Source of the DNA: Chitinophagaceae bacterium | GTDB lineage: Bacteria; Bacteroidota; Bacteroidia; Cytophagales; Cytophagaceae | Length of the DNA stretch: 64,000 nt | Reading direction: 5' to 3' | NCBI GenBank assembly: GCA_028288365.1 | Contig: JAQBNU010000027.1 | Location: forward strand, 62,001 to 126,000 | Shown here: piece after piece, positions 41,280 to 62,224 of the stretch | How positions within the stretch are numbered: position 1 is the stretch's first letter | Layout of the letters: every line of letters begins with the position of its first letter | The notes under the pieces: model-generated | What the model saw: only the letters and a program-made list of their open reading frames with translations | Told to the model about the DNA's origin: nothing | Database searches by the model: none | Position numbers and translations under genes: made by a program

Positions 41280-43604
41280 ATGCCTCCATTCTTTCAGGAA
41301 AAGCTAAAACCATTTTTGAATCGTACCTGGATCAGACGCATGCTGTGGACGGCTGCGGTTCTTATGGTCTTGTTTGTTGCTGCATTGACAAGCTTGTATG
41401 GTTATGTAGCATCGAAAGTTCCTTCGGCTGAAGAGCTCAAAAAAATTAAGAACCATACTGCTTCTGAAGTATACTCGGCAGACGGTGTATTGCTTGGAAA
41501 GTACTTCATTTACGAACGCAGCAATGTGGCTTACCAAGAAATTTCTCCAGACCTCATCCATGCCTTGATTGCCACAGAAGACGCTCGCTTCTACGAACAT
41601 GGTGGCATCGATGCAGTTGGTATGTTGCGGGTATTGGTTAAAAGCATTTTGCTGAGAAAAGAAAATTCGGGTGGAGGAAGTACGATCAGTCAGCAATTGA
41701 TTAAAAATATTTTTCCGCGCAGGCGTTATGCTTTTTTTTCTTTGCCACTGAATAAATTACGCGAAGCCATCACAGCAAAAAAATTAGAAACAGTTTTTAA
41801 CAAGGAACAGATTCTTACTTTATATCTTAACACGGTTCCTTTCGGTGACAATGCGTATGGCATCAAGGTAGCGGCTAAAAGATTTTTTGATAAAACACCG
41901 GCTCAATTGAACATACAGGAAGCAGCTGTGCTGGTGGGTATGTTGAAAGCACCTACTTCCTATAATCCTCGTCAACATGCGGAACGGTCAAAAGGCCGAC
42001 GCAACGTGGTGTTGGAGCAGTTGTACAAAAGTGAATACCTCACACAAGAAAAGGCAGATTCGCTTAAGGCTTTACCCTTGATTGTACATTATACCGTAGA
42101 AAATCATCACGAAGGGCTTGCCCCCTATTTCAGGGAACAATTGCGGCAGGATTTAGTGACGTGGTGTACAGAACATCCCAAAGAAGACGGAACAGAATAC
42201 AACCTGTATACCGATGGATTAAAGGTATACACCACCATCGATTCACGCATGCAGCGTTATGCGGAAGAAGCAGTGAAAGAACACCTGACCATCTTGCAGC
42301 GCCAGTTCTTCGAACATTGGAAGGGACAAGTACCCTGGGGCAAAAACAAAGCGGTGATCAGCGATGCGATGAAACGTTCGGATCATTACAGAGCATTGAA
42401 AGAAGAGGGATTATCAGAAAAAGAAATTCTCGAAGTGTTCAACAAATCGGTGCCCATGAAATTGTTTTCCTGGTCCGGCGATAAAGAAGTGACGATTTCT
42501 CCAATTGATTCCATTAAATACTACCAATACTTTTTACAGGCAGGATTGCTGGCGCTCGCACCGGAAAGCGGCTACGTGAAAGCATGGGTAGGAGGTATAG
42601 AGCACGAGTATTTTCAATACGATCACGTGAACATACATACTAAGCGTCAGGTGGGCTCTACTTTCAAACCGATCGTGTATGCTTCCGCTTTGGAACAAGG
42701 CATTGCACCCTGCGAGCGATTTACCGATGAGAAAAAAACCTACGAAGAATTTGACGGCTGGTCGCCGGGAAATTCAGAAGAGGAATACGGCGGTACTTAT
42801 TCTATGGAAGGTGCGTTGACCAAATCGGTCAATACGGTTTCCGCAGAATTGATCATTCGTTCAGGCATTCAAAATACCATACGACTGGCTCGCAGAATGG
42901 GAATAGAAAGTGAACTTGAACCAATCCCTTCTCTGGCACTGGGTTCAGCGGATGTGTCGTTGATGGAAATGGTAGATGCCTATGCTGTGTTTGCCAATGA
43001 AGGCATGCGCAATGAACCGGTGTACTTGATGCGGATTACCGATAAGTACGACAAAGAAATTTTTCGCTACAAGCAACCCAAACCTAAACGTGCGTTGTCG
43101 GCAGAAAACAGTAAGTTACTCACACACATGTTGCAGAATGTAGTGAACGCAGGCACCGGTTCTTCGCTGCGTACCGTGTATGGTTTTCGAGGTGACATAG
43201 CCGGTAAAACGGGAACGACACAATCGCAGGCGGATGGTTGGTTCATCGGCTACACACCATATTTGGTGACCGGGGTGTGGGTAGGAGCGGAAGATCGTCG
43301 GGTGCATTTTCGTTCGCTGGCTTTGGGTAAAGGCGCAGCCACTGCGTTGCCGGTATGGGCGAAGTTCATAGCGAAGGTGAATAAAGATCCGGCGTTCCAA
43401 TCCATGCGCAACAATTCATTTGCTCCGCTTTCAGCGGCGGCATTAGCTTCACTGGATTGTGCTTCGTATGAAGAACCTAAGCGAAGCGTATGGGATAAAC
43501 TGTTTGGCCGAAACAAAAAAGAAGAAAAAAACAATAAAGACACCGGAGATAAAAAAGAAAAACCAAGGAGAGGATTACGCGGATTGTTTAGAAGAAGAGA
43601 GTGA
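41280..43604 (+). CDS. Penicillin-binding protein 1A (bifunctional transglycosylase/transpeptidase)
   Basis: A 774-residue class A PBP that polymerises and crosslinks peptidoglycan. An N-terminal cytoplasmic/TM anchor (MLWTAAVLMVLFVAALTSLY) is followed by the GT51 domain with catalytic E100 in IATEDARFYEHGGID and GGGSTISQQLIKNIF. The transpeptidase domain has S460 in GSTFKP, S516 in KSVNT and K643 in GKTGTTQ, so all three penicillin-binding motifs are intact. A Lys/Glu-rich tail (NKKEEKNNKDTGDKKEKPRR) ends the protein, presumably a flexible periplasmic extension. A perfect palindrome precedes it. Confidence 0.95.
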   Translation: MPPFFQEKLKPFLNRTWIRRMLWTAAVLMVLFVAALTSLYGYVASKVPSAEELKKIKNHTASEVYSADGVLLGKYFIYERSNVAYQEISPDLIHALIATEDARFYEHGGIDAVGMLRVLVKSILLRKENSGGGSTISQQLIKNIFPRRRYAFFSLPLNKLREAITAKKLETVFNKEQILTLYLNTVPFGDNAYGIKVAAKRFFDKTPAQLNIQEAAVLVGMLKAPTSYNPRQHAERSKGRRNVVLEQLYKSEYLTQEKADSLKALPLIVHYTVENHHEGLAPYFREQLRQDLVTWCTEHPKEDGTEYNLYTDGLKVYTTIDSRMQRYAEEAVKEHLTILQRQFFEHWKGQVPWGKNKAVISDAMKRSDHYRALKEEGLSEKEILEVFNKSVPMKLFSWSGDKEVTISPIDSIKYYQYFLQAGLLALAPESGYVKAWVGGIEHEYFQYDHVNIHTKRQVGSTFKPIVYASALEQGIAPCERFTDEKKTYEEFDGWSPGNSEEEYGGTYSMEGALTKSVNTVSAELIIRSGIQNTIRLARRMGIESELEPIPSLALGSADVSLMEMVDAYAVFANEGMRNEPVYLMRITDKYDKEIFRYKQPKPKRALSAENSKLLTHMLQNVVNAGTGSSLRTVYGFRGDIAGKTGTTQSQADGWFIGYTPYLVTGVWVGAEDRRVHFRSLALGKGAATALPVWAKFIAKVNKDPAFQSMRNNSFAPLSAAALASLDCASYEEPKRSVWDKLFGRNKKEEKNNKDTGDKKEKPRRGLRGLFRRRE

Positions 43605-43848
43605 TTAGCGATCAGTAAAAATAAAATAAATCTTAAATGACTATTCACTTATTACACCTCCGCTGAATTAATGACTTCTTGTTGGCGTCTCGCCAACAAG
43701 TGATGGATTAACAACGTGCTTAATCTCTTGTTATAGGGTTGCCTTATCGTTTAACCCGAACAGATGTTGGCGAGACGCCAACATCGAGCATTGCCTGATC
43801 TAGGTGTTGCAGGTGAATAGTCATTAAATCTTATTTATAAACTGACAA
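43602..43848. repeat. Nested palindromic element: family D/outer inverted repeat around two family C hairpins
   Basis: Outer arms AATGACTATTCAC (from 43636) and GGTGAATAGTCATT (43812-43825) are complementary, and flanking CAGT-AAATAAA-like bases extend the pairing on both sides. Inside lie hairpins CTTGTTGGCG/CGCCAACAAG (43678-43700) and GATGTTGGCG/CGCCAACATC (43763-43785). It fills the gap between convergent genes PBP1A and DUF418, codes for nothing, and looks like a MITE or a composite of mobile palindromes. Confidence 0.75.
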
Positions 43849-43849
43849 C

Positions 43850-45019
43850 TTATTTTCCCCAGTTGGTCAATTGCCTCCATCCCTTTTCCAGCGGGCCTTG
43901 CGTGTGATGCTTTAACCACCAGGAAGAAAAGGACAATTGAAAGGAAAGGAAAAGCAATCCAAAGAGAAAACTGTAGGTGATGCCGAAGTAAGCGTACATC
44001 CCCAATCCAAAGCCATAGAAGAAAGGTACACCAATCAGCGGTTGCATGACGTAATTGGTTAGGCTCATCTTACCGTAAGAAGAAAGCCAGGTCGGTTTAT
44101 TTTCTATGTTCCATTCTATGCTGATGAGAATGAATAAACTCATCAGCAACAGTGTGAAAAATAAATTGCTGTACGATTCGCACAAAGCCTTGATGAGTAT
44201 GGCTTGAGAAGGAGTGAATGATTTGTCAATAAAAAAAGAAGCCACATATAAAGAGATAAATAGCAGCCCACTGAAGAGGACAGTTTTTTTTGTAAAAGAC
44301 ACATGCTGTTTCAGGTTTTCAAAATACTTCATGCGTCCAAGCAATAGGCCGATGGTGAACAAACCGATCAACTGCAAGTAACGACCAGCATTGTAGAAGT
44401 ATTGCCATTTCGCAAGATGACCTTTCCAACTGTTCAAACGGATCACATCCAGGAAGGAACCTTTGGAAAAAGTACTAAACACATCCTGCCAGGCGCTCCA
44501 GTCTTGCTGATAGGTGAAGTCAGGAATGGTAAAAGATAATCGGACGATAAACAAAGTTGGAAATTGAATCAGGAATAAAAACGAAATAATAATCAGCCAT
44601 TTATTGGAAAGACGATTCAATGCGAGAAGCAAAAGTCCAAGCATAGCGAAAGCGGTCAGGATTTCACCGATGTATAAGAGCGATAAGAGATAACCCATGA
44701 CAAATAAAATCAGTAGACGCCAACTGAAGCGCCGCCATTGATAGTCTACTCCACGTGCCGCTTGATTTTTCATTTGCAGGTAAAAACTTAGACCAAACAG
44801 GATAGAAAAAATGGAATAGGCTTTCCCTGCAAAAATAAAAAGGACGATATCAGAAACGATGGAATCTAGCTTCGCTAAAAAGGCCGTACTTTTTTCCGGA
44901 TAAAGCAACAGGTCAAAATGTTCGATGGCATGCAATAGTATAATACCAACAAGTGCAAAGCCTCGGAGGGCATCGACGATGGGTATTCTGGGAGTAATGG
45001 TTGGTGTGGCAATTTTCAT
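43850..45019 (-). CDS. DUF418 family membrane protein (acyltransferase-3-like)
   Basis: A 389-residue integral membrane protein with about ten hydrophobic segments. It begins PRIPIVDALRGFALVGIILL, the family N-terminal R-G-x-A line, followed by HAIEHFDLL, which holds the conserved His. The C-terminal DUF418 domain contains SYGKMSLTNYVMQPLIGVPF. The family is related to acyltransferases that modify cell-envelope sugars, but no reaction is established for it. It faces PBP1A across the nested repeat. Confidence 0.88.
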   Translation of the reverse strand: MKIATPTITPRIPIVDALRGFALVGIILLHAIEHFDLLLYPEKSTAFLAKLDSIVSDIVLFIFAGKAYSIFSILFGLSFYLQMKNQAARGVDYQWRRFSWRLLILFVMGYLLSLLYIGEILTAFAMLGLLLLALNRLSNKWLIIISFLFLIQFPTLFIVRLSFTIPDFTYQQDWSAWQDVFSTFSKGSFLDVIRLNSWKGHLAKWQYFYNAGRYLQLIGLFTIGLLLGRMKYFENLKQHVSFTKKTVLFSGLLFISLYVASFFIDKSFTPSQAILIKALCESYSNLFFTLLLMSLFILISIEWNIENKPTWLSSYGKMSLTNYVMQPLIGVPFFYGFGLGMYAYFGITYSFLFGLLFLSFQLSFSSWWLKHHTQGPLEKGWRQLTNWGK

Positions 45020-62051: not shown

Positions 62052-62224
62052 AAGGAGGAACGGGAGATCAGGGACGAGGAACGAATTAACACGTTGTTGG
62101 CGTCTCGCCAACAACCAGGCTGAATAAACCTGTTTCATACCAACACTTGTTGGTGGGACGCTAACAAGAAGTAAAAGAAATGAAAACAAATAATATGGTT
62201 CCTCGTCCCTGCTCTCTCGTCCCT
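62052..62224. repeat. MITE-like composite: family A terminal inverted repeats around two family C hairpins
   Basis: The left end (about 62056-62082, ending AGGGACGAGGAAC) and right end (62198-62224, starting GTTCCTCGTCCCT) are imperfect 27-bp inverted repeats. Inside are GTTGTTGGCG/CGCCAACAAC (62093-62115, perfect) and CTTGTTGGTG/CGCTAACAAG (62146-62168, diverged). It lies between the pirin start and the Crp/Fnr stop and encodes nothing. Confidence 0.75.

Follow-up and report, generated by a model that had tools for sequence, protein, structure and literature searches.

We analyze a 190-bp non-coding element that lies between a PBP1A gene and a DUF418 gene in the window, a 64,000-nucleotide stretch of DNA corresponding to positions 62001-126000 of contig C112 in genome G000 (3.8 Mb, 180 contigs, 92% complete), which appears, to judge by its genus mates, to belong to the Bacteroidota. 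The element is probably a MITE of the DDE type in which a REPIN-like hairpin doublet travels as a passenger. Each of these components is familiar, and it is the stacking of two small kinds of mobile DNA in one unit that appears unusual. In the literature that we searched, whose coverage was incomplete, we met no description of a REP doublet lodged inside a MITE and no occurrence of the 17-base hairpin core.

The window had already been described in a preliminary way from its letters alone, as containing a nested palindromic element at 43602-43848 that was either a MITE or a hairpin family inserting into itself. In the present manuscript, we re-examine this element together with related loci in G000 and in three further members of the genus (G001, G002, and G003), all four genomes being incomplete MAGs.

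Structure of the element

The neighboring genes converge on the element, as the preliminary description had placed them: a PBP1A-type protein with Transgly and Transpeptidase domains is encoded on the left (gene end at 43604), and DUF418 on the right (stop side at 43850). The element between them is smaller than first described, spanning 43636-43825 rather than 43602-43848, and its boundaries are fixed by terminal inverted repeats that match exactly over 13 bp (AATGACTATTCAC at 43636-43648 on the plus strand and GTGAATAGTCATT at 43813-43825 on the minus strand). Directly outside these repeats stands an exact 8-bp target-site duplication, AAATCTTA, at 43628-43635 and 43826-43833 (no strand assigned), which is an addition to the earlier account. 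With the flanking duplication included, the 38-nt arms are 74% complementary. Coding capacity is absent; the one listed open reading frame (at least 60 aa) that overlaps the element does so by 13 bases, antisense into PBP1A.

Within the terminal repeats lies a REPIN-like doublet of the long subfamily (43663-43789, plus strand), whose outer ends are related to TTGAATCAACAACTTC and ATCGAGC (boundaries by eye) and to which related sequence is found elsewhere in G000 without the outer repeats. Hairpin 1 (CTTGTTGGCG-TCT-CGCCAACAAG, 43678-43700, plus strand) and hairpin 2 (GATGTTGGCG-AGA-CGCCAACATC, 43763-43785, minus strand) each have a 10-bp stem and stand in opposite orientation. Their cores are 17-nt palindromes at 43681-43697 (loop TCT) and 43766-43782 (loop AGA), 85 bases apart core to core, and the 19-nt versions of the two cores are 100% complementary to each other. 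The outer stem of hairpin 2 has A-T where most short doublets (see below) have T-A; across 33 short doublets, this position is U-A in 30, A-U in 2, and G-C in 1.

The segment from 43628 to 43833 folds far better than shuffled sequence, with z = -9.1 as DNA and z = -9.5 as RNA (200 shuffles each). Together with the exact outer arms, the two opposed cores, and a hairpin pattern found 46 times in G000, where the reversed pattern is absent, these scores bear out the nested palindrome. The predicted lowest-energy fold of the element involves long-range pairing from hairpin to hairpin. This pairing has no covariation support in the 34 short doublets used as the covariation set (out of 45, the 11 with a spacing of 57 or more being left out), since shuffled data pair at least as well in 485 of 500 cases. 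The local stems of the same doublets are 95.3% paired, and their paired cells and covariation score are reached by none of 500 shuffles; even so, the support for local stems is weak, with 5 double-changed cells and a count of double-changed pairs that 49 of 500 shuffles reach; moreover, displacing the stems by -3 columns yields a score nearly as high (0.066 versus 0.069). A scan of the whole window against Rfam at gathering scores returned no matches.

Copies and target-site duplications

The preliminary description had suggested searching for the outer arms elsewhere, and they are indeed present at three other loci of G000 (on contigs C27, C62, and C100), so that four loci share the terminal repeats with up to 2 mismatches. 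The C27 copy (83664-83860), found by a DNA search of G000, is 94% identical to the window copy over 197 bases, approximately from terminal repeat to terminal repeat, and the sequence beyond the repeats is unrelated between the two. The C62 copy (105 bp, with the same kind of ends) and the C100 copy (94 bp, 2 mismatches per end) each contain a single hairpin. Alignment with long-type doublets that lack the outer repeats places a hairpin unit at the corresponding internal position in all four copies, two of them double and two single.

Exact 8-bp duplications occur at the repeat-fixed boundary in three of the four copies (AAATCTTA in the window, TAATAAAA at C62, and TTGTTTGA at C100), while no clear target-site duplication was found outside the terminal repeats of the C27 copy. 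Identical 8-mers at the spacing of the window element are rare, occurring at 4 of 63,792 positions in the window (the element itself counted) and at 109 of 640,975 positions in the loci collected (N runs excluded, redundant loci included). Given this low chance rate and the position of the duplications at a boundary set by the repeats, they are not accidental. The presence of inverted ends together with a duplication of 8 bp implicates a DDE transposase in the outer layer, because IS200/IS605-type elements leave no larger target duplications (PMC2817692).

The 23-base end, allowing up to 3 mismatches, has 10 matches in G000, of which 7 belong to the four MITE copies; two of the other three, on C146, are a different repeat, and one resembles coding DNA. 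In G001-G003, the same search gave 8 matches, all at 3 mismatches, with no pair bordered by a duplication, and paired ends with a duplication were thus recognized only in G000 among the four genus members. Seven end-like matches with one mismatch (L145, L147, L148, L150, L153, L168, and L172; C139:4295 left out) have no paired end within 300 bases and lie mostly in DNA that looks coding by eye.

The C146 repeat is a separate observation. At L102 (C146 near 43983-44197), an interior repeat, GTCCACGAAAAGAGCG ... GAAAAGAAAAAGGAT, which differs from the MITE interior, is bounded by ends that resemble those of the MITE (AATGTCTATCC / GGATAGTCATT), with no duplication. L100 (C146:754-776) is listed with it as the second C146 site of the different interior repeat.

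Empty sites in related genomes

An empty site was recognized for the C100 copy. When the G000 flanks are joined with one duplication kept, they align through the junction with G002, apart from a single gap of 3 bases slightly to the left, beside a T-run hairpin, and small gaps further off. The terminal repeats and the hairpin are absent together from this G002 site. The orthologous region in G001 and G003 is longer and holds other sequence, apparently including another repeat; an interior like that of L102 is present there.

At C62, G001 and G003 keep the neighboring genes without the element, but their intergenic DNA has diverged too far to be joined base by base; G002 has another gene next to this site. 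For the window copy there is no base-exact empty site, because the distance between PBP1A and DUF418 is 3.4 kb in G002 and 5.5 kb in G003; in G001, no DUF418 match was listed. The empty sites for which the preliminary description had asked are therefore available for one copy, in part for a second, and not for the window copy itself. Conservation across genera with no empty sites, which that description had named as the outcome speaking against its reading, is not what we observe. At two PBP1A loci of the relatives (L043 in G002 and L044 in G001), a gene that looks secreted by eye lies directly downstream of PBP1A, the position that in G000 is taken by the element and then DUF418.

The inner hairpin family

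Perfect palindromes of the pattern TTGGCGNNNCGCCAA number 46 in G000, against 0 for the reversed-pattern control, and 10, 7, and 20 in G001, G002, and G003 (reversed control 1, 0, and 0). Of 15 other genomes from the family, two contain the pattern, one of them twice and the other once. An exact 21-base version was found in 15 stretches from four MAGs of a species-genome collection that possibly does not include the window's own genome; three of these MAGs match G001-G003, and the fourth has a single hairpin in another context. The hairpin family is essentially restricted to the genus.

With no more than 3 mismatches allowed in each core, the loci collected contain 45 distinct doublets, of which 28 come from G000; an opposed pair is the form that the family usually takes. 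A short subfamily, with core spacing up to 54 and mostly 52-54, accounts for 34 of the 45 and is present in all four genus members. The spacing is 57-76 in 5 doublets and 83-85 in 6, the latter forming the long subfamily that includes the window and C27 copies. Long-type relatives without outer repeats occur at C27:35473, C103:10622, C156:14009, C27:17180, and C157:237. The window itself contains a second doublet (L063, 62097-62164, minus strand, cores at 62097-62111 and 62150-62164), which belongs to the short subfamily and also lacks the outer repeats. Doublets stand at the same place in two species in three cases (L055/L022, L072/L019, and L010/L016), and the L041 doublet is absent from its G003 ortholog. 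The hairpin family does not depend on the outer repeats and probably predates the recognized MITE insertions. An element within an element, as the preliminary description put it, is accordingly what the separately repeated inner unit represents. The MITE of that description is supported by the terminal repeats, the duplications, and the empty site. Its self-inserting hairpin family is not supported: hairpins and outer arms share no sequence relationship, and the opposed pair is the usual inverted doublet rather than the result of one copy inserting into another.

Target duplications at the doublets themselves are a subtler matter. Among the 45 doublets (two of which are MITE copies), with offsets restricted, an exact 8-mer repeat is seen at 3 (3 of 300 shuffles give as many) and a repeat of 5 or more bases at 12 (16 of 300 give as many); with any offset allowed, exact 8-mers are seen at 5, compared with 2.5 on average, and 6 of 100 shuffles give as many. 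These tests tilt weakly toward some duplications. We do not take these repeats as marking one boundary, because their offsets from the hairpins differ and one of them is a T run.

Interpretation and alternative explanations

The following history would account for these observations. A DDE-type transposase acting in trans would have used the terminal repeats of the MITE, which, as the sequence shows, inserted into AT-rich intergenic DNA and made the 8-bp duplication. In the most economical version, a long-type doublet would have entered an ancestor of the MITE once and been carried since, with a few transpositions of the combined unit after the capture. The two single-hairpin copies apparently arose by deletion between the near-identical palindromes. 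Between convergent genes, the main effect of the element, if it has any, would likely be on the 3' ends of their transcripts. We infer the enzyme in trans, the order of events, and the mechanism of this collapse from the arrangement of the copies. Likewise, we infer the capture, since no hairpin-free copy with these ends was recognized, unless the C146 element (similar ends, other interior, no duplication) is counted as one. Points against this explanation are that the outer repeats are on four copies only, one of which (C27) is without a clear duplication, and that the search for an autonomous element with such ends, described below, gave none.

In a rival reading, the doublet is the sole mobile unit, and the outer inverted repeats arose by chance or represent decayed flank. 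Doublets far outnumber the outer repeats and occur without them, one of the four outer copies lacks a duplication, and a handful of bare doublets give faint hints of adjoining 8-mer repeats. However, the outer repeats are shared by four loci, three of them with exact 8-bp duplications at the same boundary, and repeats and hairpin are jointly missing from G002 at C100; the duplications and this joint absence largely refute the reading already, and we consider it highly improbable. It is also unlikely, though less so, that the direction was reversed, with the hairpin unit original to the MITE and the bare long-type doublets being MITE copies that have lost their ends. This would explain why every one of the four MITE copies has a hairpin unit and why the bare doublet at C27:35473 still agrees with the MITE for a few bases past the boundary that the two have in common. 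It fits poorly with the prevalence of the short subfamily across all four genus members, at some places shared by two species, whereas paired ends with a duplication were recognized only in G000 and the single-end matches of G001-G003 showed no pairing of this kind.

A functional role as a bidirectional transcription terminator, or as an mRNA 3' end structure for PBP1A and DUF418, would suit the position between two convergent genes and the strong predicted RNA fold (-81.1 kcal/mol). We regard this role as very unlikely, as no terminator-like site with a T run was found in 43400-44100 (1.0 expected from shuffles), the MITE unit adjoins genes unrelated to PBP1A and DUF418 at C27, C62, and C100, and in G002 and G001 a different hairpin, recognized by eye and trailed by T-rich sequence, comes directly after PBP1A.

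Under the preferred explanation of a MITE with a passenger doublet, the one- and two-hairpin copies form a small natural series in which to follow how doublets may give rise to single hairpins. A MITE-borne doublet would also be a second route of spread, which could help explain how the hairpin family persists in genomes where no cognate RAYT is recognized. A bolder proposal, to which we give only a small chance, is that a REPIN-type doublet fixed inside a DDE-type MITE makes a hybrid unit that spreads by two unrelated mechanisms and seeds hairpins. If true, the hybrid would combine a single-strand route through an HUH enzyme with the DDE route and would deposit new hairpin copies wherever the MITE lands.

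Comparison with known systems and search for transposases

The outer layer resembles bacterial MITEs such as MITEAba12 (PMC6382973), which is likewise short and non-coding and has inverted repeats at its ends and AT-rich duplications of its target sites. MITEAba12 is given as 113 bp, compared with 94-190 bp here, and that report lists 9-bp duplications for two related insertion sequences, compared with 8 bp here. The differences from MITEAba12 as described there (PMC6382973) are that the interior of our element is a separately repeated hairpin doublet, that 4 copies were recognized, and that a candidate parent insertion sequence was not found. The transposase search covered the IS1595 and DDE_Tnp_1 families in incomplete MAGs and yielded no autonomous element that shares the ends: the one IS1595-type transposase matched in G000 is without these ends, and DDE_Tnp_1 had no match in any of the four genomes. 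The 16-nt end, at up to 2 mismatches, occurs 36 times in G000 versus 41 in the control, i.e., without excess.

The inner layer resembles REPINs/BIMEs, which PMC3116915 describes as palindromes paired in inverted orientation around a spacer that is less conserved, the doublets being common, extragenic, and present in many copies; single palindromes are read there as doublet remnants. In contrast to REPINs/BIMEs as presented there (PMC3116915), some doublets here ride inside a MITE, and no cognate RAYT was recognized in the four incomplete MAGs. As a rule, a REP doublet goes with a RAYT of its own (PMC6006769). Since no RAYT was recognized and the duplication tests at the doublets tilt only weakly, we call them REPIN-like rather than REPINs. 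The GT[AG]G tetranucleotide, described as the hairpin foot of REPINs/BIMEs (PMC3116915), is absent 5' of our hairpins, where the consensus is nnTTnAnTTCTTG. This absence alone does not exclude a REPIN type, because the TnpA-REP genes of subclass 2.6, from Bacteroidetes, are reported to have atypical secondary structures (PMC6006769). The likeness to subclass 2.6 (PMC6006769) consists of the shared phylum, hairpins without a canonical foot, and, in our genus, many Y1-transposase genes with palindromes adjoining.

We found 30 Y1-transposase loci in the four MAGs (3, 11, 8, and 8; L024-L026 and L103-L129), 28 of them above the Pfam cut-off. None was recognized as flanked by the GTTGGCG hairpin in a search of up to 1,500 bases on either side (some flanks being cut by contig ends) for TTGGCGNNNCGCCAA with up to 2 mismatches, a difference from subclass 2.6 (PMC6006769). 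The only two matches at Y1 loci, at L118 (inside a broken Y1 frame) and L121 (~700 bases off), form no hairpin by eye and were rejected as family members. One pair of Y1 genes had seemed a promising source of the RAYT because their genomes, G000 and G003, hold the most hairpins: the 185-aa gene at G000:C154:89973 (L026) and its 69%-identical relative on G003:C143 (L123), the next best of the 30 loci being 32% identical. A different palindrome, GCAGGGTC..GACCCTGC, adjoins both genes, and we rejected them as the cognate RAYT.

At least 6 different palindromes stand beside Y1 loci, including GTGTCAGGTC..GACCTGACAC, GGCGCAAGAT..ATCTTGTGCC, GGCGCCAAT..ATTGGTGCC, and CGGATGTTCC..GGAACATCCG, and the genus apparently harbors diverse RAYT/REP systems. 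At one further locus (L129, G001:C57), hairpins of the TTGTTTCGTGTCTCACGAAACAA type adjoin a Y1 match that is too weak to pass the Pfam cut-off; their center, GTCTC, resembles the center of the hairpin family and provides a weak lead.
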